From the IMG/VR virus record IMGVR_UViG_3300042445_000703, positions 1 through 24,423 of that record: a DNA stretch of 24,423 nucleotides. One strand, 5' to 3'. Positions within the stretch are counted from its first letter, which is position 1. Each line of letters starts with the position of its first letter. The notes under the pieces are model-generated. The model ran no database searches, had not been told where the DNA came from, and saw only the letters and a program-made list of their open reading frames with translations. Of the stretch, positions 12,315-23,718 are shown piece after piece. Origin of the DNA: a virus. A program made the position numbers and the translations under genes.

Positions 12315-12337
12315 TTGTCAGACCCCTCTGATAGGTT
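12315..12337 (+). promoter_or_regulatory. GTCAGACC-box promoter P1
   Basis: TTGTCA, 11 bp, then TAGGTT with a TG extended -10. It drives the small gene at 12430 and probably its leader. The -10 is weaker than in most copies. Confidence 0.65.
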
Positions 12338-12360
12338 TATCTTATAAAGCAGTTAAGAAT

Positions 12361-12402
12361 GAGCCTAGCAAATAATCCCTAACGGGTGAGCCTAGCAAAT
12401 AA
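12361..12402 (+). repeat. Duplicated 15-bp leader repeat encoding two tiny ORFs
   Basis: GAGCCTAGCAAATAA occurs at 12361-12375 and 12388-12402. The first copy lies in a 7-codon frame from ATG 12359 (MSLANNP), the second in a 7-codon frame from GTG 12386 (VSLANKS). Both precede the ribosome binding site of the 12430 gene. Translation is unproven. Confidence 0.55.
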
Positions 12403-12429
12403 GTCTTAGCACTAACGAAAGGCAACTCT

Positions 12430-12552
12430 ATGAATGAGTTAGCACTAGAGAACATCACTAAGGTTAAGTGCCTTGAGTGTGGCGATAAGTTGACCTCTTG
12501 GGAAACTTCAGGCTATTGCATTATCTGCGAGCCTGATGAGTATGACATCTGA
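12430..12552 (+). CDS. 40-residue zinc-ribbon-like protein (paralogue of 13396-13506)
   Basis: The product has two Cys-x2-Cys knuckles, CLEC (14-17) and CIIC (30-33), suited to binding one zinc ion. The opening MNELALENITK and the CGDKL after the first knuckle match the 36-residue protein at 13396 (MTELALEQITK, CGDKL), so the two are paralogues. GAAAGG ends about 8 nt before the ATG. Both copies follow the same DnaA-box/promoter cassette, so gene and control region were duplicated together. A role as a nucleic-acid-binding or regulatory mini-protein is possible but not shown. Confidence 0.75.
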   Translation: MNELALENITKVKCLECGDKLTSWETSGYCIICEPDEYDI

Positions 12553-12555
12553 AAA

Positions 12556-12578
12556 CTGTCAGACCCCTATGCTAAGAT
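12556..12578 (+). promoter_or_regulatory. GTCAGACC-box promoter P2
   Basis: CTGTCA, 11 bp (GACCCCTATGC), then TAAGAT. It starts 3 bp after the stop of the 12430 gene and drives the 12609-13154 operon. Confidence 0.7.
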
Positions 12579-12608
12579 GAAACTACTAAACAGGAATGAG
12601 GTAATCAG

Positions 12609-12779
12609 ATGATTTACTTACACTTAGACCCCTTTGAGGGATTGGTATGCGGTTGTAATGACTTTGCATACATTCGTGAGGTTAATACCTTTAACGGTGA
12701 GCAGACAGACTTCTGCGATTATTGTTGTGTCAAGGCTTTCGGTATGCTTGACAACTTTGAGAGAAAAGAGTCACTATGA
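12609..12779 (+). CDS. 56-residue cysteine-rich protein
   Basis: The cysteines are arranged as VCGC near residues 13-16 and CDYCC at 36-40, a possible zinc site flanked by an aromatic, acidic background. A TGAGG ribosome binding site precedes the ATG, and promoter P2 lies just upstream. The stop overlaps the next start as ATGA, so the following membrane protein is translationally coupled. I do not recognise the family. Confidence 0.68.
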   Translation: MIYLHLDPFEGLVCGCNDFAYIREVNTFNGEQTDFCDYCCVKAFGMLDNFERKESL

Positions 12780-13027
12780 TTGACGCTATCACCGCACCAT
12801 TCGTATCCCTCTATGATTTAGTAATGAACATCTTTATCTTTATAATCGTAACGGTTATCTTGATGATTGTGTTACCGATTATCGCTGTACCGTTCTTAGT
12901 AAAATTGTTTGCTGTGTATTTAGGTAAAACAGTTACAAAAGAATTAGGCAAGATTGCAAAAGAAATAATTAAAGAGTTGCAAGATGAAAAAAACAAAACA
13001 CAAATAGAAAAGAGAAAAAATGTTTAA
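12776..13027 (+). CDS. Small membrane protein with a charged C-terminal helix
   Basis: The 83-residue product has a long hydrophobic stretch (about residues 17-50, FIFIIVTVILMIVLPIIAV and following) that could make one or two membrane passes. A Lys/Glu-rich helix (about 56-83) then presumably lies in the cytoplasm. It overlaps the preceding gene by 4 bp and the next by 8 bp. No specific family was recognised. Small inner-membrane proteins of this kind in phage early regions are often host-modulating, but there is no direct evidence here. Confidence 0.72.
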   Translation: MIDAITAPFVSLYDLVMNIFIFIIVTVILMIVLPIIAVPFLVKLFAVYLGKTVTKELGKIAKEIIKELQDEKNKTQIEKRKNV

Positions 13028-13154
13028 CTCATTAGTCGTAATCGTTGACGGTGTTAAGTATGTGTATGAGTGCCATAGTTATAACCGAGCATTGGAAATA
13101 CTTGCAGGACAGTATGAGGTATGCAAGACCGTTGACTCATTCGAGTTAGTGTAA
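13020..13154 (+). CDS. 44-residue hypothetical protein
   Basis: The start at 13020 overlaps the end of the membrane-protein gene by 8 bp. The product opens with a beta-like FNSLVVIVDGVKYVYE, then an amphipathic helix, and ends VDSFELV. It has two isolated cysteines. It is the last gene of the P2 operon and is followed by a strong GC hairpin (13161-13185). Function is unknown; support comes from overlap, frame and the hairpin. Confidence 0.6.
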   Translation: MFNSLVVIVDGVKYVYECHSYNRALEILAGQYEVCKTVDSFELV

Positions 13155-13160
13155 TGTTTA

Positions 13161-13185
13161 GGGGGGTGTGATCTTAGCACCCCCC
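13161..13185 (+). terminator. Strong GC hairpin after the P2 operon
   Basis: GGGGGGTG and CACCCCCC form a perfect 8-bp stem with a 9-nt loop, 6 bp after the 13020 gene. No U-run follows, so it may be a Rho-independent terminator of the actinobacterial U-less type. Confidence 0.6.
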
Positions 13186-13206
13186 ACCGACATAACGCAC
13201 ACGACA

Positions 13207-13235
13207 CGCCCAACGGGGCGACCCCCTGTGGATAA
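13207..13235 (+). promoter_or_regulatory. GGGGCGACCC hairpin followed by a perfect DnaA box
   Basis: CGCCC and GGGCG pair around AACG (13207-13220), overlapping the GGGGCGACCC motif (13215-13224). TGTGGATAA (13227-13235) is an exact match to the reverse complement of TTATCCACA. Confidence 0.55.
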
Positions 13236-13365
13236 CTATTGATTAAGTATATGTTAGCTAATTCACAGGAATTATCTGTGGATAAGTTGTGTATAAAGAA
13301 TTAACCTAATGTTCATCTAAATTATGCCGTTTCAAGTTGATAATGTCTGCCGTATGTGCTAAGGT
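13236..13365 (+). repeat. DnaA-box/promoter cassette, copy B (shortened)
   Basis: This carries a DnaA box at 13277-13285, a one-mismatch box at 13288-13296, the conserved TTAACCTAATGTTCATCTAA segment and promoter P3. The box-to-(-10) spacing is 83 bp against 82 bp in copies A and C. Confidence 0.6.
13343..13365 (+). promoter_or_regulatory. GTCAGACC-box promoter P3 (degenerate)
   Basis: ATGTCT, 11 bp (GCCGTATGTGC), then TAAGGT with an extended TG. The CAGACC box is altered to CTGCC. It drives the 13396-13925 operon. Confidence 0.5.
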
Positions 13366-13395
13366 GATACTACCTACTAAAGAAAGGCTAATCAG

Positions 13396-13506
13396 ATGAC
13401 TGAATTAGCACTAGAACAAATCACTAAGGCTACTTGCCTAGTGTGCGGTGATAAGTTAGCACCGTTCGAGTTAGAGTCACGACTATGCATAATGTGTGAG
13501 GACTAA
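13396..13506 (+). CDS. 36-residue zinc-ribbon-like protein (paralogue of 12430-12552)
   Basis: Two Cys-x2-Cys pairs, CLVC (14-17) and CIMC (31-34), make a minimal zinc ribbon. The N-terminus MTELALEQITK and the CGDKLAP segment are close to those of the 12430 protein. GAAAGG lies about 9 nt before the ATG. The stop is 1 bp from the next start. The parallel duplication with its upstream cassette suggests that the cassette and gene form one functional unit. Confidence 0.72.
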   Translation: MTELALEQITKATCLVCGDKLAPFELESRLCIMCED

Positions 13507-13507
13507 A

Positions 13508-13696
13508 ATGTTTCTGTATAACTTAGGTGACTTGCTTACAGGTATTGCTATCTTCTCGCTACCTGTACTACTACTTGAACTACAACTACTAGTCATTGGA
13601 CTAAATGGAATGTCGGTCAATGTAATGATAGTAACCGCAGGTATTGGTTTGCTATCTGCAATCGGTGCAGTGGTAATTGAAATGATTGAGGGTTAA
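13508..13696 (+). CDS. Two-pass small membrane protein
   Basis: The 62-residue product has two hydrophobic segments (about residues 9-30, ending LLLELQLLVIG, and 37-57, VMIVTAGIGLLSAIGAVVI) and almost no charged residues. The ATG at 13508 is preferred to upstream in-frame codons because those overlap the zinc-ribbon gene. It sits in a run of three membrane peptides (13508, 13699, 13848) and is probably co-translated with them. Membrane modulation or superinfection control is conceivable but not shown. Confidence 0.66.
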   Translation: MFLYNLGDLLTGIAIFSLPVLLLELQLLVIGLNGMSVNVMIVTAGIGLLSAIGAVVIEMIEG

Positions 13697-13698
13697 TT

Positions 13699-13851
13699 AT
13701 GTTAATGTATGTATCTCTTATTGTGTTGGTTAATGTTATCGCTGGGCTTAGTGCCTATGCGTTTATTGTAATCAAGGAATTAAAATCTAGTCGTGCTATG
13801 TGGCAACAAGCATACACATCATTGTGTATTGAGATGGAATTAAACAAATGA
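13699..13851 (+). CDS. 50-residue single-pass membrane protein
   Basis: The hydrophobic segment at about residues 3-25 (VSLIVLVNVIAGLSAYAFIV) is followed by a short cationic KELKSSR and an amphipathic tail. The start is 2 bp after the preceding stop, and the stop overlaps the next start as ATGA. No known family is recognised. Confidence 0.62.
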   Translation: MLMYVSLIVLVNVIAGLSAYAFIVIKELKSSRAMWQQAYTSLCIEMELNK

Positions 13852-13925
13852 AAATCTTTATAGCAATCATTCTGTTGTTGTTATTCTTTGGTGCGTTGTC
13901 TGGTGATGGCAAGGGAAGATTCTAG
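13848..13925 (+). CDS. 25-residue membrane micropeptide ending GDGKGRF (paralogue of 14732-14809)
   Basis: The product is one hydrophobic helix followed by a conserved polar tail: MKIF, then a run of I/L/F, then FGALSGDGKGRF. A near twin lies at 14732 (MKIFLLIVFALLLFGAIS followed by GDGKGKF). Conservation of both the opening and the tail at amino-acid level, with differing nucleotides, argues that it is translated. It is coupled to the preceding gene by ATGA. The function of such micropeptides is unknown. Confidence 0.65.
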   Translation: MKIFIAIILLLLFFGALSGDGKGRF

Positions 13926-13930
13926 CTACC

Positions 13931-14074
13931 GCCCCCGAAAGGGTCGCCCCAAAAATGCCCAAATGTCAATTAAGACACGCCCAAAATATCACTGAAATAT
14001 GTGGGATTGATCACAAAAATACTTATGCGACACGCCCGAATGTGTCAAAAACTGTCAGACCCTTATGCTAAGAT
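13931..14074 (+). promoter_or_regulatory. Composite intergenic block ending in promoter P4
   Basis: CCC-GAAA-GGG and GGG-TCGC-CCC stem-loops overlap at 13934-13950, followed by TCAATTAAGACA, ATCACTGAAAT and promoter P4. P4 is CTGTCA at 14052, 11 bp, then TAAGAT at 14069-14074. It drives the 14106 gene. Confidence 0.65.
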
Positions 14075-14105
14075 AAAGGCATAAGACAAAATGAAAGGGG
14101 TCAAA

Positions 14106-14264
14106 ATGACTTACTTAGAGAAAATGCTAGAGCAGGGCTATGAATACATCTGCTGTTTCTGTAATCAAGAGTTTGTAGACAAGCCATACTATTGTGGCGG
14201 TTGTGATGAATACAAGGGTATCGTCACTATTGAGGACTACATACAAAACTATGGTGACACCTAA
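14106..14264 (+). CDS. 52-residue zinc-ribbon-like protein
   Basis: Cysteines in ICCFC (16, 17 and 19) and YCGGC (30 and 33) form a compact zinc-ribbon pattern, followed by an acidic and aromatic C-terminal helix. GAAAGGGG lies about 6 nt before the ATG, and promoter P4 is immediately upstream. The next promoter, P5, begins 3 bp after the stop, so this is a single-gene transcription unit. Function is unknown; a DNA- or protein-binding adaptor is one guess. Confidence 0.72.
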   Translation: MTYLEKMLEQGYEYICCFCNQEFVDKPYYCGGCDEYKGIVTIEDYIQNYGDT

Positions 14265-14267
14265 AAA

Positions 14268-14290
14268 CTGTCAGACCCTTATGCTAGAAT
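14268..14290 (+). promoter_or_regulatory. GTCAGACC-box promoter P5
   Basis: CTGTCA, 11 bp (GACCCTTATGC), then TAGAAT. It drives the 14324-14809 operon. Confidence 0.7.
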
Positions 14291-14323
14291 AAATCCAACA
14301 AACAAAAACGAAAGGTGGTCACA

Positions 14324-14548
14324 ATGACTACACTAAACACGCAAGACTTTATCGACTCTTACAAGGCTTTGCATAATGCAAAGTATCCAACACTAAGTGC
14401 AAACGAATACCTTGTGCTTAACACAATTCTAACCGTTTCTATTGAGTGGGGAAAAACACTTGATGAGGTGCAAGAATTACTAAACAAAAAAACTCAAGAG
14501 CAAAATCTTGAACTACAATTCTTTGAAAATGCAAAGGCAGGAAAATAA
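14324..14548 (+). CDS. 74-residue protein, paralogue of 15066-15290
   Basis: The mostly helical product opens MTTLNTQDF and continues with an ALHNAKYP motif and an IEWGKTLDEVQELLNKK helix. The protein at 15066 has the same length and matching landmarks (MTTLNTEPF, ALNKAKYP, INWKMGITQIQKSLDEK). Both are preceded by the same GAAAGGTGGTCACA leader, so an upstream GTG at 14315 is rejected as a start. Function is unknown. Duplication within 750 bp suggests dosage or divergence under phage control. Confidence 0.75.
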   Translation: MTTLNTQDFIDSYKALHNAKYPTLSANEYLVLNTILTVSIEWGKTLDEVQELLNKKTQEQNLELQFFENAKAGK

Positions 14549-14549
14549 A

Positions 14550-14732
14550 ATGATGACACGCAAAGACTACATAGCAACCGCAAAGATTTTTAATTCTTAT
14601 GCAGAAGCAGGACAAGACAACATTTTAATTTTATCACTTGTAAAAAGTATCGCAGAAGATTTTGCAGATTTATTTGCAAATGATAATCCAAACTTTGATG
14701 AAGAAAAGTTTTTTGATGCGGTAGGCGTGTGA
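14550..14732 (+). CDS. 60-residue acidic hypothetical protein
   Basis: The start is 1 bp after the preceding stop (ATGATG, either ATG possible) with AGGA upstream. The product is helical and acidic towards the C-terminus (AEDFADLFANDNPNFDEEKF). It overlaps the downstream micropeptide by the TGATG junction. The composition is like other small actinophage early proteins. No family was recognised. Confidence 0.66.
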   Translation: MMTRKDYIATAKIFNSYAEAGQDNILILSLVKSIAEDFADLFANDNPNFDEEKFFDAVGV

Positions 14733-14809
14733 TGAAAATATTTCTTTTAATTGTTTTTGCTCTACTTTTATTTGGGGCAATCTCTGGTGACGGAAAAGGA
14801 AAGTTCTAA
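14732..14809 (+). CDS. 25-residue membrane micropeptide ending GDGKGKF (paralogue of 13848-13925)
   Basis: One hydrophobic helix (IFLLIVFALLLFGAI) is followed by SGDGKGKF. Length, opening residues and tail all match the peptide at 13848. Both are the last gene of their operon, overlap the preceding stop and lie just before a GC hairpin. This shared position and conserved tail support expression. A third, divergent MKIF micropeptide is at 16377. Confidence 0.66.
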   Translation: MKIFLLIVFALLLFGAISGDGKGKF

Positions 14810-14816
14810 CCGACAC

Positions 14817-14845
14817 ACCCGAAAGGGTCGACCGCAAAGCTTTGC
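14817..14845 (+). terminator. GNRA hairpin plus GCAAAGCTTTGC palindrome
   Basis: ACCC-GAAA-GGGT (14817-14828) is followed by a 12-bp perfect palindrome (14834-14845) containing the AAGCTT seen in several other intergenic blocks. There is no U-run. Confidence 0.45.
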
Positions 14846-14882
14846 AGAAGTCAATTACGAGACCCCCAAAAGATCACTGGAA

Positions 14883-15030
14883 TTTCATAACAATTAAGTA
14901 AATTTTTGGTAAAGATCGGTGTGTCGATTTGACAAGATTATCTGTGGATAACCTGTGAGTTATTGTTCACCAACTGTTCACCTAGTTTATGCCCTAATTG
15001 GCAGAAATTGTCGGTGGTATCTGGTAAGGT
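14883..15030 (+). repeat. DnaA-box/promoter cassette, copy C, with promoter P6
   Basis: This aligns without gaps to 12190-12337. It contains a degenerate inverted repeat (GTGTCGATTTGACAAG), a perfect TGTGGATAA DnaA box at 14943-14951, the TGTTCACCTA segment and promoter P6 (TTGTCG at 15008, 11 bp, TAAGGT at 15025-15030). Confidence 0.7.
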
Positions 15031-15065
15031 TAAACCATAACCAACTAATGAAAGGTGGTCACACA

Positions 15066-15290
15066 ATGACTACACTAAACACCGAACCGTTCAAGTACGC
15101 TTACAATGCCCTAAACAAGGCTAAGTATCCAAACAGCCATAACTTAAGTGGTGGCTATGTTGCACTAGCGACAATGCTTGAAGTTTGCATAAATTGGAAA
15201 ATGGGTATCACCCAAATCCAAAAGTCATTAGATGAAAAAACTAATGAGTGGACAAACGAATTATTAGAATTAGAAAGTTTGGTGAAATAA
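15066..15290 (+). CDS. 74-residue protein, paralogue of 14324-14548
   Basis: This helical protein shares the MTTLNT start, the AKYP motif and length with the 14324 product but has diverged in the middle. It is driven by promoter P6. GAAAGGTGG precedes the ATG at 15066, and upstream in-frame codons fall within the promoter cassette. Its stop (15288-15290) directly abuts the next ATG at 15291. Function is unknown. Confidence 0.74.
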   Translation: MTTLNTEPFKYAYNALNKAKYPNSHNLSGGYVALATMLEVCINWKMGITQIQKSLDEKTNEWTNELLELESLVK

Positions 15291-15482
15291 ATGACTGAAA
15301 TAAATCTTAAAGAATTATCAGAAATTATCCTTGACCGCTACACCCCATTTTGTTTCAAGTGTGAGTGTGAGTGCAACGGTGAACACCCAGAATGTGCAAG
15401 TGCAAAAATTGAAATGTATCAACAATTTGATACCGTTCAGAGAATTGCAAAATACATTTCCGAATACAATCCAGAACACTAG
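15291..15482 (+). CDS. 63-residue cysteine-rich protein
   Basis: The CFKCECECNGEHPEC segment (about 22-36) packs five cysteines and one histidine into 15 residues, a likely metal-binding site. It is flanked by an N-terminal helix and an acidic helical C-terminus. It follows the preceding stop without a gap and has weak ribosome-binding potential, suggesting coupling. The family was not recognised. The dense cysteines could bind zinc or an iron-sulfur cluster. Confidence 0.7.
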   Translation: MTEINLKELSEIILDRYTPFCFKCECECNGEHPECASAKIEMYQQFDTVQRIAKYISEYNPEH

Positions 15483-15489
15483 GAGAAAA

Positions 15490-15642
15490 ATGAAAATTGT
15501 AAAAAACAAAATAGATGGAACATTTTTAATTGGTGTTACATTTTCAAATAACTTTAACTACCGAACAAAAAGAAAAGACACAACTTTAATTTTTGACTTA
15601 GGTTCTAATTCGTTTGCATTTGTTTTGAGAGGTGAATACTAA
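15490..15642 (+). CDS. 50-residue basic beta-rich hypothetical protein
   Basis: The product looks like a small beta barrel or sheet: KIVKNKIDGTFLIGVTF, a basic loop NYRTKRKD, then TTLIFDLGSNSFAFVLRGEY. AGGAG ends 4-5 nt before the ATG at 15490, which fixes the start. It overlaps the next tiny gene at TAATG. Function is unknown. Confidence 0.68.
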   Translation: MKIVKNKIDGTFLIGVTFSNNFNYRTKRKDTTLIFDLGSNSFAFVLRGEY

Positions 15643-15722
15643 TGAATAGTTTTTATTCTTGGGTGTTAATTTTATCTCTTGCAAGTTTAGTTTATTTATT
15701 GGTGGACAAATTTAACGATTAG
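15642..15722 (+). CDS. 26-residue membrane micropeptide
   Basis: A single hydrophobic helix (WVLILSLASLVYLLV) has a short charged end, DKFND. It is coupled to the preceding stop by TAATG and, like the MKIF micropeptides, is the last gene before a GC hairpin. This recurrent position is the main support; sequence similarity to the others is weak. Confidence 0.5.
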   Translation: MNSFYSWVLILSLASLVYLLVDKFND

Positions 15723-15727
15723 CCACC

Positions 15728-15822
15728 GCCCTTCGGGGCGACCCAAAGCTGCCAGATCAATTACGACATTAAGGTAAAACTCACCGAAATCACAGGAAAT
15801 TGTCAGACCCTTGTGATAAGAT
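15728..15822 (+). promoter_or_regulatory. Composite intergenic block with promoter P7
   Basis: GCCC-TTCG-GGGC hairpin (15728-15739) overlaps GGGGCGACCC (15735-15744). AATTACGA (15759-15766), TCACCGAAAT and promoter P7 follow. P7 is TTGTCA at 15800, 11 bp, then TAAGAT at 15817-15822. Confidence 0.68.
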
Positions 15823-15846
15823 AATCTTATTATCAGAGGAGATAAA

Positions 15847-16380
15847 ATGACCTACCTACAAAATTATCGTGAAGTCGTAAAGTCTGCAACCCCAGCCCAA
15901 ATTGAAATGGCTGTAACGTGGTATCTTGACGCAGAATTATTAGCACAAGATGTTATGAGAATTTTTAACGCTCGTGGCGTTAATGTAAACCTAGAACAAT
16001 CTGCTAGTGTGATCTCATCGTTCTCACCTCGTCAGCGTTGGAATCGCAATGTTGCACAAGCATTAGAGTTTGCAAATGGCAGTGAGCCAAAAGGCTTAGG
16101 CAATAATCTGCGAATGGCTTACAAGTCTTTAACAAATGGCTTTGACGCACTAAAAGGACAAAAGACAAATGCGTTCGCTCGTGCAATCGCAGGTGATGAG
16201 AATGCAATCACAATAGATGTGTGGATGTGTTATGCAGGTGGACTAAAAACAAATGCACCAAACAAAACTCAGTATCGTGAAATGTCTGACGCTGTTAGAG
16301 TTGTTGCAAGTGAGTTAAAAATTACACCTCGTGCAACTCAAGCCCTGATCTGGATTATTTTCAGGGGGTCTGCTGAATGA
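15847..16380 (+). CDS. Conserved actinophage-type protein of unknown function, 177 aa
   Basis: The product is largely helical. It shows a SSFSPRQRWNRNVAQALEFA block (about 57-76), an AFARAIAGDENAITIDVW block (about 110-127) and a closing ATQALIWIIFRGSAE. The same order ('PRQRW', 'D.x.VTVD.W', 'QA..W...RG') is found in a widespread uncharacterised family in actinobacteriophages. The helical layout and the TIDVW aspartate have a loose resemblance to HhH-type DNA glycosylases, but I see no proven catalytic set. GAGGAG lies about 6 nt upstream. The stop overlaps the 16377 micropeptide as ATGA. Confidence 0.78.
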   Translation: MTYLQNYREVVKSATPAQIEMAVTWYLDAELLAQDVMRIFNARGVNVNLEQSASVISSFSPRQRWNRNVAQALEFANGSEPKGLGNNLRMAYKSLTNGFDALKGQKTNAFARAIAGDENAITIDVWMCYAGGLKTNAPNKTQYREMSDAVRVVASELKITPRATQALIWIIFRGSAE

Positions 16381-16439
16381 AAATTTTCCTAGTGTGTTTA
16401 TTATTCCTAATAGCAATCGGTGCTTGCACCGCCTCATAA
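16377..16439 (+). CDS. 20-residue MKIF-type membrane micropeptide with terminal cysteine motif
   Basis: The product is MKIF followed by a hydrophobic run and IAIGACTAS. The IGAC resembles a minimal lipobox, so the peptide could be lipid-modified if exported; this is speculative at such length. It overlaps the preceding stop as ATGA and sits last in its operon, like the 13848 and 14732 peptides. It lacks their GDGKG tail. Confidence 0.45.
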   Translation: MKIFLVCLLFLIAIGACTAS

Positions 16440-16443
16440 AAGA

Positions 16444-16531
16444 GGGTCGCCCCCAAGAGCTTAGAGCAATTACGACATTAAGATAATAGTCACTGAAATC
16501 ACTGGAAAATGTCAGACCCTTATGGTATGAT
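16444..16531 (+). promoter_or_regulatory. Composite intergenic block with promoter P8
   Basis: GGGTCGCCCC (16444-16453), AATTACGA (16468-16475), GTCACTGAAATCACTGG and promoter P8. P8 is ATGTCA at 16509, 11 bp, then TATGAT at 16526-16531. Confidence 0.68.
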
Positions 16532-16560
16532 GAAATCATCATCAACCGTTAGGAAAAAAA

Positions 16561-16725
16561 ATGTATTCATTCCAAGAAACTGACTTTGCAACCGAAATCC
16601 TTTTAGATGAGGTTTTTGCCTTTGATGAATTTGAGCAGGAGTTTGAGTTAGATGACGAAATGCCTGATGACGAAATGAATGAAGATGCAGGTATGGAAGG
16701 TTATCTCTTTGGTTGGGATTCATAG
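16561..16725 (+). CDS. 54-residue extremely acidic protein without basic residues
   Basis: Twenty of 54 residues are Asp or Glu and there is no Lys, Arg or His, giving a very low expected isoelectric point. Acidic residues are spread along a likely helix (FDEFEQEFELDDEMPDDEMN), and the end is aromatic (GYLFGWDS). It is the only gene in the P8 unit. AGGAAAAAAA precedes the ATG. Some phage proteins of this composition mimic DNA and block restriction or other DNA-binding enzymes, but composition alone cannot prove that. Confidence 0.66.
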   Translation: MYSFQETDFATEILLDEVFAFDEFEQEFELDDEMPDDEMNEDAGMEGYLFGWDS

Positions 16726-16732
16726 TCCTACC

Positions 16733-16821
16733 GCCCTTCGGGGTCGCCCCAAAAATTCTCCAAAATTCTTTTACGAAACACCCAAAATGTCACTGAAATT
16801 GTCAGACCTCTGTGGTAAGAT
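16733..16821 (+). promoter_or_regulatory. Composite intergenic block with promoter P9
   Basis: CCC-TTCG-GGG and GGG-TCGC-CCC hairpins overlap at 16734-16750. TTACGA (16771-16776), TCACTGAAAT and promoter P9 follow. P9 is TTGTCA at 16799, 11 bp, then TAAGAT at 16816-16821. Confidence 0.68.
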
Positions 16822-16850
16822 GATAACATCAGCCAATCGAAAGGAACACT

Positions 16851-17093
16851 ATGTTTACTCTACATAATCCAATGAAAGTTATGAACGAACGCTATGTTGT
16901 TACATCGCACCCTTGCCCTACTTGCAATGAAACCAAAACGGTTTCAATCTCTTCTTCTGAATTATTTGCATACCATCAAGGTGCATTGGCTCAAAATGTA
17001 TTGTCTGACTATGACGCAGATGTTCGTGAGCGTTTCATTAGTGGAGTATGTTCCCCTTGCTGGGACTCAATGTTTGAGTTTGAGGACGAGTAA
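16851..17093 (+). CDS. 80-residue zinc-ribbon protein of a common actinophage type
   Basis: Two Cys-x2-Cys pairs, CPTC (about 22-25) and CSPC (about 67-70), are separated by a helix with AYHQGALAQNVLSDYDADVR. This matches a well-spread family of small actinophage proteins ('CP.C...AYRQGALIQ...ICSDCW'). AAAGGA lies about 7 nt before the ATG at 16851. The family's function is unknown; structural zinc binding is likely. The stop is 2 bp before promoter P10. Confidence 0.8.
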   Translation: MFTLHNPMKVMNERYVVTSHPCPTCNETKTVSISSSELFAYHQGALAQNVLSDYDADVRERFISGVCSPCWDSMFEFEDE

Positions 17094-17095
17094 AA

Positions 17096-17118
17096 TTGTC
17101 AGACCTCTATGATAAGGT
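17096..17118 (+). promoter_or_regulatory. GTCAGACC-box promoter P10, leaderless
   Basis: TTGTCA, 11 bp (GACCTCTATGA), then TAAGGT. It starts 2 bp after the preceding stop, without the usual hairpin block. The ATG at 17125 lies 6 nt after the -10, so the transcript is probably leaderless. Confidence 0.68.
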
Positions 17119-17124
17119 AGACCT

Positions 17125-17262: not shown

Positions 17263-17263
17263 A

Positions 17264-18149: not shown

Positions 18150-18180
18150 GCCCTTCGGGGCGACCCCAAGCTTTGGGGTC
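18150..18180 (+). terminator. Double hairpin after the whiB operon
   Basis: GCCC-TTCG-GGGC (18150-18161) is followed at once by an 8-bp stem GACCCCAA/TTGGGGTC with a 3-nt loop (18162-18180). Together they contain GGGGCGACCC and AAGCTT. Confidence 0.62.
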
Positions 18181-18221
18181 ATTTACGACATTAAGAAAAT
18201 AATCACGAAAATCACTAGAAA

Positions 18222-18244
18222 TTGTCACACCTTTGTGGTAATGT
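18222..18244 (+). promoter_or_regulatory. GTCAGACC-box promoter P11 (GTCACACC variant)
   Basis: TTGTCA, 11 bp (CACCTTTGTGG), then TAATGT. TTACGA (18183-18188) and AATCACGAAAATCACT lie upstream. Predicted transcription starts near 18251, directly at the base of a structured leader. Confidence 0.6.
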
Positions 18245-18323: not shown

Positions 18324-18345
18324 ACCTACTAAGAAAAGAGAAACA

Positions 18346-18486: not shown

Positions 18487-18487
18487 A

Positions 18488-19109: not shown

Positions 19110-19243
19110 TGGACGGCTATGAGTTAGTTGTTACAGGCGTATACAAAAATGGTGTCAGAGTTTCTGCACCACCCACTTGCAGGAATTGCAATAAAGAATT
19201 AGATTTTCTAGAGGAGTTTGTTGGGTGTGATGATTGTGTTTAA
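19109..19243 (+). CDS. 44-residue zinc-ribbon-like protein
   Basis: Cys-x2-Cys pairs CRNC (24-27) and CDDC (40-43) enclose a short acidic loop, an almost minimal zinc ribbon, preceded by a beta-like YELVVTGVYKNGVRVSA. It overlaps the preceding gene by 1 bp and the next by 14 bp. It is one of about nine such tiny Cys-pair proteins in this window. Nucleic-acid binding is possible but unproven. Confidence 0.68.
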   Translation: MDGYELVVTGVYKNGVRVSAPPTCRNCNKELDFLEEFVGCDDCV

Positions 19244-19358
19244 TTTATTTAATCGTAAACCAGTTGAAGATACATTTACTAAGTTAGATAGACTAATGAG
19301 TGAAATGGCTACAACCAATACATACATAGAATACCTTCGTGAAAGGGAGGGTATGTAG
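19230..19358 (+). CDS. 42-residue hypothetical protein
   Basis: The ATG at 19230 overlaps the zinc-ribbon gene by 14 bp. The product is helical and charged (FTKLDRLMSEMATTNTYIEY, then REREGM). Similar short proteins with a 'KLDRLxxxM...' helix occur in phage operons, but I cannot name a family. The stop overlaps the following GTG as TAGTG. Evidence is limited to frame and coupling. Confidence 0.5.
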   Translation: MIVFNLFNRKPVEDTFTKLDRLMSEMATTNTYIEYLREREGM

Positions 19359-19462
19359 TGGGATTGTTCTATGGTATTATCTTTATACTTTTGGTACTTG
19401 GGGGAGTATCATCAGTAGCATTTTTATCAGATAAATATGAAAGCAGAGACGATGAATTATAA
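19358..19462 (+). CDS. 34-residue membrane micropeptide (GTG start)
   Basis: A single hydrophobic segment (LFYGIIFILLVLGGVSSVAF) is followed by a charged tail, SDKYESRDDEL. The GTG start overlaps the preceding TAG, and GAAAGGGAGG lies about 8 nt upstream, a strong ribosome binding site that supports translation. It overlaps the next gene at its 3' end. Function is unknown. Confidence 0.55.
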   Translation: MGLFYGIIFILLVLGGVSSVAFLSDKYESRDDEL

Positions 19463-19670
19463 ATACGCAGATAAGCTATCTGGATATCAGTTAGAGCCTG
19501 GAGACTTAATAGTCTTTGATGGCATAGATGAACCAATACAAATCAAGAGCCTCGATATTCTTTTAGATGGATATATGGTTAATTACTTAGATGAATATGG
19601 TGATGAAGAATTGCATCAGTATATTGCTGATGATGATATTGTTGATCTATATGTCTATGATATGGACTGA
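19437..19670 (+). CDS. 77-residue acidic hypothetical protein
   Basis: Two starts are possible, ATG 19437 and ATG 19452; neither has a good ribosome binding site, and both overlap the micropeptide gene. The product shows a beta-like LEPGDLIVFDGIDEPIQIKS, then DGYMVNYLDEYGDEELHQYI and a very acidic end, DDDIVDLYVYDMD. The start-to-middle pattern resembles small beta-barrel proteins that begin 'GDLI'. It is the last gene of the P11 operon, followed by a GC hairpin with a T-run. Confidence 0.68.
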   Translation: MKAETMNYKYADKLSGYQLEPGDLIVFDGIDEPIQIKSLDILLDGYMVNYLDEYGDEELHQYIADDDIVDLYVYDMD

Positions 19671-19671
19671 C

Positions 19672-19690
19672 GGGTCGCCCCATTTTTTTT
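19672..19690 (+). terminator. Intrinsic terminator of the P11 operon
   Basis: GGG-TCGC-CCC is followed by A and eight T residues, one of the few GGGTCGCCCC copies with a full U-run. It lies 1 bp after the stop at 19670. Confidence 0.65.
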
Positions 19691-19753
19691 GGATTTGTCA
19701 AGTTACGACACTCTCAAAAAATTCACTGAAATATTTGCAAAAAAGGGTTGTTT

Positions 19754-19776
19754 CTGTCAGACCTTTGTGGTAAGAT
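19754..19776 (+). promoter_or_regulatory. GTCAGACC-box promoter P12
   Basis: CTGTCA, 11 bp (GACCTTTGTGG), then TAAGAT. TTACGA (19703-19708) and TTCACTGAAAT lie upstream, and a TTGTTT (19748) is at the -35 distance of 17 bp. Confidence 0.7.
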
Positions 19777-19826
19777 GTGAGTATCACAAAAAAGGGAATA
19801 ATCCCATAAACAGAAATGAGATACAA

Positions 19827-19982
19827 ATGGCTAAGTTAATTGCCCCAACTGTTGGCTCACAGTTCACGACTCAAAAGTCTGCCGTAACTGGAACGGTGAC
19901 AGAAGTTAAAGAAAACACTAACGGTACGCTTCGTATTAAGTTAGATGTAAACGGTCAAGACCGTTGGACAACTGTAAAGTAG
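19827..19982 (+). CDS. 51-residue beta-barrel-like conserved small protein
   Basis: The ATG at 19827 is chosen because it follows promoter P12; the open frame upstream crosses the promoter. The product AKLIAPTVGSQFTTQKSAVT begins a compact beta fold that continues GTVTEVKENTNGTLRIKLD and ends RWTTV. This matches small conserved actinophage proteins ('PTVG..FTTQKSGV.GTI.EV....G..RV.LDVNG..RWTTV'). The fold suggests an OB- or SH3-like domain, possibly nucleic-acid binding. It forms a single-gene unit. Confidence 0.78.
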   Translation: MAKLIAPTVGSQFTTQKSAVTGTVTEVKENTNGTLRIKLDVNGQDRWTTVK

Positions 19983-19992
19983 TCTGATTGTG

Positions 19993-20029
19993 GGGGTCTG
20001 GCAAAACTGTCAGACCCCTGTGATAAGAT
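19993..20029 (+). promoter_or_regulatory. Promoter P13 with its box in a hairpin
   Basis: CTGTCA (20007), 11 bp, then TAAGAT (20024-20029). Uniquely, GGGGTCTG (19993-20000) is the exact inverse of CAGACCCC (20011-20018), so the box lies in an 8-bp stem with a 10-nt loop, which may also terminate transcription from P12. Confidence 0.65.
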
Positions 20030-20064
20030 TATTTTAATAACTACCTACCAATAAGGAGAAACAA

Positions 20065-20550
20065 ATGGGACTAGACATGTACCTTCGTGCAAGTGAGTAT
20101 GTATCACGCAACGATTGGAGTCGTAACGAAAAGGGTGAGATTAGGGACAACCCTAATTGGTTGTTCACACAAATTGTTGAAACTCTTGAGTTAGAAGATG
20201 TAATTGACAAGACTGGCTTTGCTGGAATGACCATTGACTTGCCTATGGGATACTGGCGTAAGTCAAACATGATACATCATTGGTTTGTAAATAACTTAGC
20301 AGATGGTGTTGATGAATGTCAGCCAATAGTTGTACGCAGAGAAGATTTAGAACAACTAAAAGAAACCTGCATTGAAGTAATTGCTAACCCAACAGATGCA
20401 GAAGAATTATTGCCAACTGGTTCAGGATTTTTCTTTGGCTCAACAAGTTATGACCAATACTACTTTAGTGACTTGCATGACACTATTGGTATTCTTAACA
20501 AGTGTCTTGAAAGTAAGTTTGATTATTTTGAGTACCAAGCATCTTGGTAG
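20065..20550 (+). CDS. MGLDMYL-family conserved phage protein, 161 aa
   Basis: The opening MGLDMYLRASEYVS and the later MGYWRKSNMIHHWFV (about 70-84), a cysteine after the DGVDE segment, and GSGFFFGSTSYDQYYF (about 118-133) are the landmarks of a widespread phage and bacterial protein family of unknown function found in phages of many hosts. Length is normal for the family. AAGGAG lies about 6 nt before the ATG. It is the only protein gene of the P13 unit and precedes the tRNA. Identification as this family is firm, but function is unknown. Confidence 0.85.
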   Translation: MGLDMYLRASEYVSRNDWSRNEKGEIRDNPNWLFTQIVETLELEDVIDKTGFAGMTIDLPMGYWRKSNMIHHWFVNNLADGVDECQPIVVRREDLEQLKETCIEVIANPTDAEELLPTGSGFFFGSTSYDQYYFSDLHDTIGILNKCLESKFDYFEYQASW

Positions 20551-20571
20551 TAGGTTAAAGCCGAAACCAAA

Positions 20572-20592
20572 ACCTGCCACCGCCACGCAGGT
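20572..20592 (+). terminator. Hairpin between the MGLDMYL gene and tRNA-Asp
   Basis: ACCTGC and GCAGGT pair with a 9-nt loop. No U-run follows, so termination is uncertain. The rest of 20551-20649 shows nothing else. Confidence 0.35.
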
Positions 20593-20649
20593 AAAATAAA
20601 GGGGACAGTCCTAAGCACCATACTCAGACTATAAACTGCTTACCATCTT

Positions 20650-20726
20650 GGTCTGTTAGCTCAACTGGTTAGAGCACTACCCTGTCACGGTAGAGGTTGT
20701 GGGTTCAAGTCCCATACAGATCGCCA
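20650..20726 (+). tRNA. tRNA-Asp (anticodon GTC), CCA encoded
   Basis: A complete cloverleaf can be drawn. The acceptor stem is GGTCTGT with ACAGATC (one G-U), the D-arm GCTC/GAGC, and the anticodon stem CTACC/GGTAG with loop CTGTCAC carrying GTC. The T-arm is GTGGG/CCCAT with loop TTCAAGT, the discriminator is G and a CCA is encoded. It reads GAC/GAU codons. GAT is abundant in the neighbouring acidic phage genes, and a phage tRNA may offset a host codon bias or survive host tRNA cleavage; both are inference. Confidence 0.95.
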
Positions 20727-20743
20727 CGGGTCGCCCCGTTTTT
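20727..20743 (+). terminator. Intrinsic terminator directly after tRNA-Asp
   Basis: CGGG-TCGC-CCCG followed by five T residues begins at the base after the CCA. It is a copy of the recurrent GGGTCGCCCC motif. Confidence 0.72.
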
Positions 20744-20807
20744 CCTGTTTTGTCAATTACGAAACACCTAGAAAACTCACTGAAGTTTCCCAAAATAAGT
20801 ATTGATT

Positions 20808-20830
20808 TTGTCAGACCTTTATGCTAAGAT
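20808..20830 (+). promoter_or_regulatory. GTCAGACC-box promoter P14
   Basis: TTGTCA, 11 bp (GACCTTTATGC), then TAAGAT. A TTGATT (20802) lies 17 bp before the -10 as a possible real -35. AATTACGA (20755-20762) and CTCACTGAAG lie upstream. Confidence 0.72.
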
Positions 20831-20858
20831 TAAGGTATCAACCGAACAAAGGAAAAAA

Positions 20859-21851
20859 ATGTCTATTGACCAAATAGAAATCGTAAACGGTAAGGCTTCT
20901 TACGCTTCTTTGCGTGTACCTGCCTACCACCAATTAGGAACTGTCTTTCAAGATGAAGTTTCTACATCGGAAATGCTTGAACTAGCAAATCTACATAACT
21001 GGAATGTACGCCTTGAAGATGTTGCACTACCAGAAAACTACACAACTGTAAAGAATAACTTTATGGTTGTTCGTGACCACCCAGAAGATGGCAACGGAAA
21101 TGTTTTGTCTGTTGTTGGAGAACGCTACAAGGTTTTGCAGAATGAAGAACTGTTTGCCTTTGGTGACAACCTACTTGATGGTGGTCGTTGGGAAGTTGCT
21201 GGTTCTCTAAAGCAAGGTAGACTTGTCTTTGGTGCATTAGCCCTTGAGCGTGAAACCGTACTTGACCCTAATGGTGTTAGTGATGTAATTAAGAATTACC
21301 TTGCTATCTCTACAAGCCACGATGGTTCTAGTGCTGTTCAGGCAACTGTCACACCAATTCGTATGACCTGTATGAATACTCACACCGCAGTATTCCGCAA
21401 GGGTGCAAAGCAGTCTTTCAAGTTACGCCACACACAGTCATTAGATGGTCGTGTTGCACAGGCTCGTGAAGCATTGGGTCTTGCCAATACTTACATTGAC
21501 GAGTTTGAGGTTATGGCTAAGGCTATGATTGAAAAGCAAATCACTAAAGACACATTCAACAAGATTGTTGCTCTTGCATACCCAATGCCAGAAAAAGATA
21601 GCAAGGGTGCTGTCAAGAAATGGGAAACCAAGATTGACTTGTTAGATGAAATCTATGGTGGTGACACTAACGGAATGATTGCTGGAAATGCGTGGGGTGC
21701 TTACAATGCACTTACAGAACGCTTAGACTGGTATCGCACTGCTCGTGGCAATTCCGAAAGTATCCTAATGGGTGCTAGTGGTTTTGACCCTGTTGTAAAT
21801 GCTGAAAAGAATAAGTTGCTTGCACTTGTTCGTGAGGTGGTTGGGGTTTAG
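20859..21851 (+). CDS. DUF932 / TIGR03299-type phage-plasmid protein
   Basis: The 330-residue product matches the DUF932 family of phage and plasmid proteins. It shows PAYHQLGTVF near the N-terminus, VVGERYKVLQNEELFAFGDN (about 85-104), a central NYLAISTSHDGSSAVQATVT and PIRMTCMNTH, and a closing ERLDWYRTARG. Members are cytoplasmic and have no settled function; association with DNA replication or anti-restriction loci has been noted. The ATG at 20859 has AAAGGA upstream, and the longer open frame crosses promoter P14. It is a single-gene unit followed by a long hairpin. It is one of the larger early proteins here. Confidence 0.88.
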   Translation: MSIDQIEIVNGKASYASLRVPAYHQLGTVFQDEVSTSEMLELANLHNWNVRLEDVALPENYTTVKNNFMVVRDHPEDGNGNVLSVVGERYKVLQNEELFAFGDNLLDGGRWEVAGSLKQGRLVFGALALERETVLDPNGVSDVIKNYLAISTSHDGSSAVQATVTPIRMTCMNTHTAVFRKGAKQSFKLRHTQSLDGRVAQAREALGLANTYIDEFEVMAKAMIEKQITKDTFNKIVALAYPMPEKDSKGAVKKWETKIDLLDEIYGGDTNGMIAGNAWGAYNALTERLDWYRTARGNSESILMGASGFDPVVNAEKNKLLALVREVVGV

Positions 21852-21864
21852 TCCCCAATCACTA

Positions 21865-21902
21865 CCCCGAAATCCTGACTTGACAAAGTTGGGATTTTGG
21901 GG
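21865..21902 (+). terminator. Long hairpin after the DUF932 gene
   Basis: CCCCGAAATCC pairs with GGATTTTGGGG (11 bp, one G-U) around a 16-nt loop. It runs into GGGGCGACCC (21900-21909) and AAAGCTT. Confidence 0.55.
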
Positions 21903-21975
21903 GCGACCCTTAAAGCTTCCTAATTACGAAGCATTAAGAGGATCACTGAAAAGTTCACAGGAATTACTATTGTTT

Positions 21976-21998
21976 TTGTCAGACCTATGTGGTATGAT
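21976..21998 (+). promoter_or_regulatory. GTCAGACC-box promoter P15
   Basis: TTGTCA, 11 bp (GACCTATGTGG), then TATGAT. A TTGTTT (21970) lies 17 bp before the -10. AATTACGA (21922-21929) and ATCACTGAAA lie upstream. Confidence 0.7.
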
Positions 21999-22028
21999 TT
22001 CATCATAACCTACTAACAAAGGAAACAA

Positions 22029-22808
22029 ATGCCAAACTGGGTATTCAATTCGCTAGTCGTATCTGGCGAACAATCACAATTAGAAAAAATGATGGCTCAA
22101 CTTAATCAGCCATTTGAAAAGCACTTCCCTGAATCAAAGTTTAATCAGGAAACAAAAGAGTGGGAACACTTCCCTGATGTTCAAGTCTATGACAATCCTA
22201 TCTTTGCTTTTTGGAACATTGTAAAACCAACCGACCTTGAAGCATACTACGAAAGAGATGTATTAAAAGGTAACGCAAACATCAAAAAAGATGCTGACGG
22301 AAAGTTTGACAACGATAGTTTTATGGAAGAGTTTGTTCGCTCTATGCGTGACGACCAAGACTGGTATCATTGGAATGTTCGCAACTGGGGAACTAAGTGG
22401 GACATTGGTGTTCCTAATGGACAAGAGTATTCAGATACACAGGTACAGATTACAGACGACAATGATGTTATGTATCATTTCCAAACCGCTTGGAGTCCAG
22501 TCGGTGAAGTCCTAATGAAACTATCAGAGATGTATCCTAGCCTTAACTTTGATTATGAGTATGAAGAAGAACAAGGTTGGGGTGGAACTTGCACATTCAA
22601 GGGTGGAGTAGACATAGCCTGTGACCAATGGGACATTCCAGAATCACACTCTGACTACAAAGATAGAGATAAAGAGTGTCCTTGTGAGTATGACGACATT
22701 GAGTATGCATACAAGGATTGCCCTGTAGATACCACTGGCTACCAGTGGAATGATGAAGACCACGAATGGCAGGAGATTTCTATTGACATTCCTGCCGAAA
22801 TAAGATAA
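22029..22808 (+). CDS. Api92-like / DUF1281-type ferredoxin-fold protein
   Basis: The 259-residue product opens MPNWVFNSLVVSGEQSQLEK, the standard 'MPNWC.N.L.V.G' start of the Api92/DUF1281 group found in phages and plasmids. It carries DWYHWNVRNWGTKWD (111-125) and FQTAWSPVGEVLMKLSEMYP (151-170), where the ferredoxin-like C-terminal domain is usually placed. The normal cysteine after PNW is Val here. A Cys-rich acidic tail follows (ECPCEYDDIEYAYKDCP). AAAGGA precedes the ATG. Members have no proven function. It begins the P15 operon. Confidence 0.82.
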   Translation: MPNWVFNSLVVSGEQSQLEKMMAQLNQPFEKHFPESKFNQETKEWEHFPDVQVYDNPIFAFWNIVKPTDLEAYYERDVLKGNANIKKDADGKFDNDSFMEEFVRSMRDDQDWYHWNVRNWGTKWDIGVPNGQEYSDTQVQITDDNDVMYHFQTAWSPVGEVLMKLSEMYPSLNFDYEYEEEQGWGGTCTFKGGVDIACDQWDIPESHSDYKDRDKECPCEYDDIEYAYKDCPVDTTGYQWNDEDHEWQEISIDIPAEIR

Positions 22809-22840
22809 ACTATTACTAACAACCTACAAAGGAGAAAATC

Positions 22841-23311
22841 GTGGATTATCCAATCCCAGCAACAGTAACAGAATACAAGCCAGAGTATGACCCAAAGGCA
22901 ACAATGATTATCAAAAAGGGTTACTACTACGCTTCACCAGAACAATCAAGGTACGAAGTAGAAAATGCAGACGACATTTCAAGAGCGTTTTGGAGAGTAG
23001 ATGCATTAACAGAAACTAACCAAAGAAACTCAAGAGCACACGACAAGTTAAAAGATTATCTTGTTGAGAACTTTGATGAGATTGGCGAAGAACACGCAAC
23101 TGAAATTGCAAACATTCTTAGCATTGATTTGTCAAAGACAGTTGATGTTGAATTCAATGTAACAATCAAAGCAACAATCTCCATTCCAGTTAATGAAGAT
23201 GTGTCTGACTTAAGTGTCTATGACTTTGATGTTGAGATTTCCTCAAACAACAATGATTATGAGATTGAAGAGTTTGATACAGACATTGACTCAATAGATG
23301 AAAGATACTAG
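22841..23311 (+). CDS. 156-residue acidic hypothetical protein
   Basis: A GTG start follows AAAGGAG by about 8 nt. The product has an N-terminal YYYASPEQSRYEVENAD, a helical middle (HDKLKDYLVENFDEIGEEHA), and an acidic beta-rich C-terminus beginning VDVEFNVTIKATISIPV. The C-terminal 'V.F.V.I.A.I..P' strand pattern is seen in several phage early proteins of unknown role. It is the second gene of the P15 operon. A 7-bp inverted repeat follows the stop. Confidence 0.7.
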   Translation: MDYPIPATVTEYKPEYDPKATMIIKKGYYYASPEQSRYEVENADDISRAFWRVDALTETNQRNSRAHDKLKDYLVENFDEIGEEHATEIANILSIDLSKTVDVEFNVTIKATISIPVNEDVSDLSVYDFDVEISSNNNDYEIEEFDTDIDSIDERY

Positions 23312-23312
23312 G

Positions 23313-23331
23313 TTTCCTAGTAGGTAGGAAA
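23313..23331 (+). terminator. 7-bp inverted repeat after the 156-aa gene
   Basis: TTTCCTA and TAGGAAA form a perfect stem around GTAGG, 2 bp after the stop. It lacks a U-run and could attenuate or stabilise the transcript into the 23406 gene. No other feature is seen in 23332-23405 apart from AAAGGAG. Confidence 0.4.
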
Positions 23332-23405
23332 GATGTGGAGGCGATAACCACAATTCAAAAACACCACCGACTTCAACATTGGTTGATAAACAAAAGGAGA
23401 AATAA

Positions 23406-23567
23406 ATGGCTAAGAAACTATTTATCGCACAGGAAAAGTGGAACACACGTTTCGGTAAGTCTGATCGTGTAGTTGTACGAGATGCAAATGGTCACTTCGT
23501 TGACAATGTATCTAAGCGACAGATGAAAACAGGCGAACGTGAACTTCCTTATGAAGTTGCTCGCTAA
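23406..23567 (+). CDS. 53-residue basic hypothetical protein
   Basis: The product AKKLFIAQEKWNTRFGKSD is followed by a beta pair (RVVVRDANGHFVDNVS) and a basic RQMKTGERELPYEVAR. AAAGGAG lies about 7 nt before the ATG. It has no GTCAGACC promoter, so it probably depends on read-through from P15. A strong terminator follows 12 bp later. The family was not recognised; the charge would suit nucleic-acid binding. Confidence 0.68.
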   Translation: MAKKLFIAQEKWNTRFGKSDRVVVRDANGHFVDNVSKRQMKTGERELPYEVAR

Positions 23568-23579
23568 GTAAATTAGATT

Positions 23580-23609
23580 GCCCCCTGGAAACAGGGGGCT
23601 TTTCTTTTG
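23580..23609 (+). terminator. Strong intrinsic terminator of the P15 operon
   Basis: GCCCCCTG-GAAA-CAGGGGGC is a perfect 8-bp stem with a GNRA loop followed by TTTTCTTTT. It is the best terminator in the window. Confidence 0.9.
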
Positions 23610-23619
23610 TCCAAAGCTT

Positions 23620-23718
23620 GGGGCGACCCTCGAAAACCCTCTAGTTACGAAGAGCTAAAAAAATCACGGGAATCTAGGGCAAATTACTATTGTAAATGTC
23701 ATACCCTTGTGGTAGGAT
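23620..23718 (+). promoter_or_regulatory. Composite intergenic block with promoter P16
   Basis: GGGGCGACCC (23620-23629), TTACGA (23645-23650), AATCACGGGAAT and promoter P16. P16 is ATGTCA at 23696, 11 bp (TACCCTTGTGG), then TAGGAT at 23713-23718. A TTGTAA (23690) is at the -35 distance. Confidence 0.65.

Follow-up and report, generated by a model that had tools for sequence, protein, structure and literature searches.

The viral sequence analysed here, hereafter the window, comprises 24,423 nt (positions 1 to 24,423 of IMG/VR record IMGVR_UViG_3300042445_000703) and carries sixteen copies of a 23-bp element, all on the + strand and within 12,315–23,718 (16 sites in 11 kb). Comparison of sequences indicates that these sixteen elements are very probably promoters for the housekeeping RNA polymerase of the host, activated by the host WYL heterodimer PafBC. 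Their layout is that of the published LexA/RecA-independent DNA-damage promoter (RecA-NDp), whose consensus is given as tTGTCRgtg, 8 nt and TannnT (PMC5656591) and which is described as activated by PafBC (PMC6789036, PMC8223512). A sequence-only reading of the window had held the box to be unlike any known site, which is not borne out. The elements, and one gene of the same arm, are listed below; "matrix" marks entries for which the window matrix is cited as evidence, and ORF stands for open reading frame.

12315–12337, + strand: putative PafBC-type promoter TTGTCAGACCCCTCTGATAGGTT; matrix; ORF start 92 nt downstream
12556–12578, + strand: putative PafBC-type promoter CTGTCAGACCCCTATGCTAAGAT; matrix; ORF downstream
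13343–13365, + strand: putative PafBC-type promoter with variant box ATGTCTGCCGTATGTGCTAAGGT and −35 TTGATA; matrix
14052–14074, + strand: putative PafBC-type promoter CTGTCAGACCCTTATGCTAAGAT; matrix; ORF downstream
14268–14290, + strand: putative PafBC-type promoter CTGTCAGACCCTTATGCTAGAAT; matrix; ORF downstream
15008–15030, + strand: putative PafBC-type promoter TTGTCGGTG-GTATCTGG-TAAGGT, matching literally the RecA-NDp consensus given in PMC5656591; matrix
15800–15822, + strand: putative PafBC-type promoter TTGTCAGACCCTTGTGATAAGAT; precedes the DUF7178 gene at 15847–16380
16509–16531, + strand: putative PafBC-type promoter ATGTCAGACCCTTATGGTATGAT; matrix; ORF downstream
16799–16821, + strand: putative PafBC-type promoter TTGTCAGACCTCTGTGGTAAGAT; matrix; ORF downstream
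17096–17118, + strand: putative PafBC-type promoter TTGTCAGACCTCTATGATAAGGT; ATG 6 nt past the −10; the following genes include WhiB
18222–18244, + strand: putative PafBC-type promoter TTGTCACACCTTTGTGGTAATGT; matrix; ORF start 101 nt downstream
19754–19776, + strand: putative PafBC-type promoter CTGTCAGACCTTTGTGGTAAGAT with −35 TTGTTT; matrix
20007–20029, + strand: putative PafBC-type promoter CTGTCAGACCCCTGTGATAAGAT; matrix; ORF downstream
20808–20830, + strand: putative PafBC-type promoter TTGTCAGACCTTTATGCTAAGAT with −35 TTGATT; precedes the DUF932 gene at 20859–21851
21976–21998, + strand: putative PafBC-type promoter TTGTCAGACCTATGTGGTATGAT with −35 TTGTTT
23696–23718, + strand: putative PafBC-type promoter ATGTCATACCCTTGTGGTAGGAT with −35 TTGTAA
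17556–17765, + strand: gene for a WhiB-like protein (Pfam PF02467, E 8e-20)

All sixteen starts proposed in the sequence-only reading were exact, and its 23-bp register and spacing were confirmed. The element had also been called invariant; it does keep a single register and a single strand, but the full box GTCAGACC is exact in only 12 of the 16 copies, those at 13343, 15008, 18222 and 23696 having GTCTGCCG, GTCGGTGG, GTCACACC and GTCATACC, respectively, and the only columns identical in all copies are TGTC, T13, TG (15–16), TA (18–19) and T23. When both strands of the window were scored with a matrix built from the 16 sites, these reached 19.9–36.7 bits, and the best other position on either strand 6.8 bits. 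Leave-one-out scores were 22.7–35.8 bits for 14 sites, 16.7 bits for 13343 and 10.1 bits for 15008, and the best scores in simulated first-order Markov sequences (n = 100) had a mean of 6.2 and a maximum of 16.5 bits; 14 sites thus stand clear of every simulation, 13343 barely does so, and 15008 alone is not separable by leave-one-out. The strict form, TGTCAGACC-N4-TG-N-TA, occurs in the window 12 times on the + strand, never on the − strand and never in the reversed control. An ORF starts 6–101 nt downstream of every element, within 50 nt in 14 of the 16. The mainly minus-strand arm at 1–11,800, which codes for a laminin-G domain protein, ribonucleotide reductase, a glycosyltransferase-like protein and HSP20, contains no element. 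Equal frequency of the motif on the late strand, named beforehand as speaking against a regulatory element, was not seen, since nothing in 1–12,300 exceeded 6.7 bits. A minus-strand near-match, ATGTCGGTGGGGGGTGCTAAGAT (13171–13193, 6.8 bits), is present with one change in a viral relative (L129, position 2438, minus strand); it overlaps a G/C-rich inverted repeat and was not counted as a further site.

Each element ends in an extended −10 resembling TG-N-TAAGAT. The spacer is 17 bp long and begins with the ten bases of the box, and the −35 place lies directly upstream of the 23-mer. The appearance of extended −10 promoters common to the operons of one arm, as first described, holds, as does the location of the box inside the −35/−10 spacer; TTGTCA, which had been weighed as a −35 lying too close, is no displaced −35, the true place adjoining the 23-mer upstream. 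The hexamer 17 bp before the −10 reads TTGNNN in 5 of the 16 sites, and TTG is absent from the other 11 (GCAAAA, TAAAAA and AGGAAA, among others); among 162 sites from nine loci of viral relatives, TTG precedes the −10 by 17 or 18 bp in 47, as against 0–4 at each of seven other offsets. As in PafBC-dependent promoters, a poor −35 is thus paired with a −10 at the distance usual for sigma-70, and by simple arithmetic the centre of the box would fall near −26 if transcription started 6–7 nt after the hexamer. At site 17096 the ATG follows the −10 by only 6 nt, so that its transcript is perhaps leaderless; over 728 viral sites, the distance to the ORF shows a main peak at 25–35 nt and a second peak at 5–9 nt.

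Only site 15008 matches the published consensus literally within the window, and the core TGTCRG-N10-TANNNT is found in 13 of the 16 sites (the 12 with GTCAGACC and 15008), the sites at 13343, 18222 and 23696 retaining only TGTC and the spacing. Like the mycobacterial RecA-NDp (recA P1) promoters served by PafBC, the phage elements have a TTGTCRG box, 8-nt spacing, TANNNT and a weak −35, and are not palindromic. They differ from the mycobacterial promoters in being phage-borne and clustered as sixteen copies in 11 kb, in mostly having ACC replacing TG(G) after TGTCAG, in their extended −10 (TG) and in the lack of an adjoining SOS box. The structure of PafBC with RNA polymerase is reported to place the helix-turn-helix (HTH) of PafB on the −26 motif and that of PafC on sigma domain 4, with activation by single-stranded DNA (ssDNA) in the WYL domains (PMC11804915); the same source describes PafBC as not binding promoter DNA in the absence of RNA polymerase and as requiring ssDNA. 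A −26 element is likewise named in PMC10936776.

The element is also present on recA and DNA-repair genes of acI-type genomes, the presumed host group, as it is on host repair genes in mycobacteria. A 16S signature led to 17 genome contigs, 16 of which have actinobacterial titles (three of them Planktophila); the remaining one, titled as Omnitrophota, was left out. With a strict host pattern, the recA promoter was found in six of eight acI-type genomes, each time followed directly by an SOS box (tcgaacagatgttcgga), and that of carD in two; recA of P. versatilis has TTGTCAGTGGCTGGTAATACAGT, which is outside the strict pattern and likewise abuts an SOS box. Genes for WYL proteins occur in 15 of the 16 actinobacterial genomes, mostly as an adjacent pair plus one protein of >700 aa. 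The adjacent PafB and PafC of P. versatilis match the mycobacterial PafBC chains of 7p5x (E 1e-33 and 9e-27), with the PafB HTH segment RMFERDK conserved, and both proteins are present in LanE-43; the presumed host group thus has PafB and PafC, as mycobacteria do, the host itself being assigned as set out below.

A matrix made from phage sites alone was scanned over two whole genomes, P. versatilis and LanE-43. In P. versatilis it gave 17 matches above 9 bits, nine of which lie outside crudely called ORFs (94.7 % of the genome) and seven of which are at recA, rmuC, dnaB, carD and the genes for a UvrD-PDDEXK protein, a DnaQ-like exonuclease and an SOS-boxed DUF6504 protein. Four of 1,037 reciprocal-best ortholog pairs, those for DnaB, DUF6504, the DnaQ-like exonuclease and a RadA-like protein, scored above 8 bits upstream in both genomes, compared with a mean of 0.15 and a maximum of 2 for 60 column-shuffled matrices. 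At recA and at DUF6504, the element and an SOS box adjoin each other without a gap in both genomes; these abutting pairs are two of the six SOS-box matches in P. versatilis and two of the five in LanE-43, the others being without a good element. From the promoter likeness, WhiB and the low G+C content, we infer that the window probably comes from a virus of freshwater actinobacteria. 'Ca. Nanopelagicales' are described as abundant in freshwater and as lacking clustered regularly interspaced short palindromic repeats (CRISPR) spacers for host assignment (PMC10202952). The best match of the phage matrix upstream of a gene in LanE-43 (G052:956871) precedes an MmeI-type restriction-modification gene, so that defence genes of the host may be under the damage switch as well.

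A WYL domain was found neither in the window nor in any of 46 viral records, a PafB or PafC homolog in none of 28 viral records (window included; a bacterial genome used as control was positive for both), and sigma-70 region 2 in none of 27. A phage sigma factor and a phage-coded WYL, PafB or PafC protein were rejected as readers of the box over the records searched. These absences are weak singly, many records being fragments, and are consistent together. The sequence-only reading had named the phage WhiB as a candidate, and it is conceivable, although improbable, that WhiB or a small unknown phage protein activates or represses the arm and that the sites resemble PafBC promoters through mimicry or shared descent. 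WhiB is indeed encoded inside the arm and in 16 of 27 array-bearing records, and most of the small ORFs of the arm are unannotated; but WhiB was not found in the other 11 array-bearing records, which include some fragments and also records of 98 kb and 82 kb, none of the other proteins just mentioned was found in the phages searched, and recA and repair genes of the host carry this element too, which makes a phage factor unnecessary. WhiB is common among actinophages in general, and a scan of the genome contigs with the phage WhiB gave no match. PafBC of the host would be the simplest reading of these comparisons, which favours two of the options raised at the outset, a host-encoded factor and a sigma partner, the latter fitting sigma adaptation by PafBC.

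Conservation among viruses was assessed from a strict-pattern scan of IMG/VR, which returned at least 120 stretches matching TGTCAGACC. The 134 viral loci compared, a non-random sample, are the 120 fetched by TGTCAGACC among the matches listed plus 14 fetched by the DUF932 protein; 46 records were searched whole, namely 32 of the records behind the 120 stretches (hand-picked, many of them multi-site) and the 14 related through DUF932. The strict pattern is present in 41 of the 46 whole records (32 by construction), with nine of the 14 DUF932-related ones among them, and its reversed control in none of the 46. At least two strict sites occur in 46 of the 120 listed stretches. Across the 134 loci, TGTCRG and TANNNT stand at the right spacing in 825 sites and in 8–24 at each of nine other spacings, with raised counts (66–193) at spacings 7, 14, 17 and 18 that are probably due to overlapping repeats within or just after the element. 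The literal TGTCRGTG-N-TANNNT was found 276 times with a spacer of 8 and 0–44 times with nine other spacers (4–13); since the loci were chosen by another box, TGTCAGACC, or by DUF932, this peak is not built in. An ORF starts within 120 nt of 728 of the 825 right-spaced TGTCRG sites (88 %), against 38–71 % at six other spacings.

An alternative would be that the sites are plain extended −10 promoters, constitutively active, which multiplied as an intergenic cassette was duplicated and which are served by no regulator. Recurrent intergenic modules do lie beside about half of the sites, and some intergenic stretches are direct repeats; yet TGTC-N12-TANNNT is kept directly upstream of DUF932 in all 11 relatives examined of the 14 fetched (two of the 11 being identical there), with a varying box and changed flanks, the number of TGTC-N12-TANNNT sites exceeds the average for six other spacings by five or more in 61 of the 120 listed, pattern-fetched loci, and a constitutive extended −10 promoter does not need TGTCRG. 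We consider this explanation very unlikely. One relative with a DUF932 protein 82 % identical to that of the window (L134) has no strict TGTCAGACC and variant boxes such as TTGTCGGTGGTGCGTGGTACAAT instead.

One or two copies at the edge of the array are reversed in some relatives (G006:45786+, G007:49359+ and 49514+, G009:19437+ and G043:93173−), in which a divergent arm may share the switch. Locus L072, a 4.5-kb stretch of a 17-kb contig, has a much higher G+C content (50 % over the locus) and nine TGTC-N12-TANNNT sites, which suggests that phages infecting other actinobacteria carry such arrays too. By protein, the closest cultured relatives among the matches listed are Stanwilliamsviridae phages of Streptomyces, such as Jay2Jay, with best listed identities of 51–52 % for DUF932 and 62–63 % for ribonucleotide reductase; an array common to these relatives was considered and rejected, there being none in Jay2Jay, Tomas, Coruscant, Belfort or Annadreamy. 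A blastn search of cultured phages with the 32-nt consensus, a query so short that sensitivity is low, gave no match. Two cultured phages offer leads only: Patience has a TGTCAGTG-type site at 42516–42537, which overlaps the end of gp56 by 19 bases and precedes gp57 by 73 nt, and a second site (55263) within gp84, and Warren has a site at 28515–28536, which overlaps the end of gene 44 by 19 bases and precedes the gene for an ssDNA-binding protein by 56 nt, and a further site within a RuvC-like gene. Cultured Planktophila phages are reported to exist (PMC10202952); none was among the matches listed in searches of phage collections. The same source describes E7 and F5, phages isolated on LanE-43, with 39-kb genomes and a family to themselves.

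Three other systems of repeated or damage-linked sites were compared with the array. The stoperators of Cluster A mycobacteriophages are repressor sites dispersed over the genome and not tied to promoters; the likeness lies in an actinophage genome that repeats a short asymmetric site many times, whereas the elements of the window always come with a −10, in one arm, on one strand and just before ORFs, and are not dispersed over the genome. Start-associated sequences of Cluster K, also repeated near gene starts, keep a fixed position relative to the start codon, whereas the elements of the window lie at variable distances from it (6–101 nt) and at a constant distance from the −10. LexA/SOS-controlled prophage genes are likewise wired to the DNA-damage response of the host and are regulated by release from a repressor, whereas activation by an ssDNA sensor is proposed here; the best match in the window to an SOS box of the TCGAACNNNNGTTCGA type has three mismatches.

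In the proposed mechanism, TTGTCAG(ACC/GTG) would be the −26 element read by the PafB HTH, situated in the upstream half of the spacer of 17 bp, and contact of PafC with sigma region 4 would offset the poor −35. Such sigma adaptation, in which PafBC compensates for a poor −35, has reportedly been demonstrated by others in mycobacteria. Any ssDNA exposed on entry, during replication or through damage, whether of phage or of host DNA, would turn PafBC on, and the arm of small genes would then be expressed as one regulon. Because PafBC needs ssDNA and binds in dependence on RNA polymerase, little or no expression of the arm is expected before ssDNA appears, and joint expression from then on; joint switching of all early operons, as first suggested, is plausible. 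Whereas recA of the host comes with an SOS box, none adjoins the phage sites, which would escape repression by LexA; as none was found in the window, the whole arm is probably free of LexA. Host group, binding by PafBC, triggering by ssDNA and timing are all points that we infer from sequence likeness.

Several observations weigh against control by PafBC. The commonest phage box (GACC) differs at two positions from the mycobacterial GTG, host boxes being variable there too, and NCBIfam assigns no family to either WYL protein of P. versatilis. The remaining matrix matches in P. versatilis are at unknown genes, inside genes or probably due to chance, and the bare TGTCRG-TANNNT pattern is in no clear excess in that genome (12, against 3–11 at other spacings), so that it is the full matrix that carries the regulon signal in P. 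versatilis. Nothing in the window other than its tRNA matches the two host-group genomes, the tRNA-Asp being 78 % identical. Among the viruses, a strict TGTCAGACC site is missing from five of the 14 DUF932-bearing records, two distant ones (L141 and L142, DUF932 identity 28–29 %) show no excess of the element, and 17 cultured actinophages have no array (0–4 matches each, 0–5 in the reversed control); a WYL gene could also be located beyond the ends of the viral records, which are mostly fragmentary. The need of PafBC for ssDNA also makes firing at the very start of infection less easy to account for. Finally, ClgR is also reported on the RecA-NDp promoter, having been described as recognising recA P1 of M. 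smegmatis (PMC5656591), and another host regulator of the ClgR/ClpR kind might use the sites in place of PafBC; we find this barely plausible, since placement of PafB on the −26 motif and of PafC on sigma domain 4 (PMC11804915) accounts for a box and a −10 locked at fixed spacing.

The sequence around the promoters has further features. Direct repeats lie at 12191–12339, 13225–13330 and 14884–15032, each just before a promoter (12315, 13343 and 15008); the first and third are alike at 73 % over 149 nt, and a 28-nt part is found in all three. They contain TGTGGATAA DnaA-box-like words, and the first and third a palindrome, TGTC(A/G)ATTTGACA, making the region a candidate replication origin. A recurrent intergenic cassette, at 15720–15800, 16440–16509, 16730–16799, 18150–18222, 19670–19754, 20725–20808, 21895–21976 and 23620–23696, consists of a hairpin-like stretch of GGGCGACCC/TTCG type, TTACGA(C/A) (in eight of eight copies), often TCACTGAAA, and then the promoter; it may combine terminator and promoter in one stock unit and include a second binding site. 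A tRNA-Asp(gtc) gene is located at 20650–20726, between two operons.

A literature search by title and start of the abstract, whose coverage leaves out most subscription journals, found no report of PafBC promoters in phages. The phage arm has 16 putative promoters of this type, compared with 17 matrix matches in the whole P. versatilis genome. We tentatively raise the possibility, for which the odds seem to us a little short of even, that in a widespread group of actinophages this arm is an 'ssDNA-gated' regulon outside the control of LexA, which would amplify itself as replication exposes ssDNA and would also divert PafBC-RNA polymerase from the repair genes of the host. Arrays of TGTCRG-N10-TANNNT would provide a handle, from sequence only, for finding phages whose actinobacterial hosts have PafBC, for example 'Ca. 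Nanopelagicales'.

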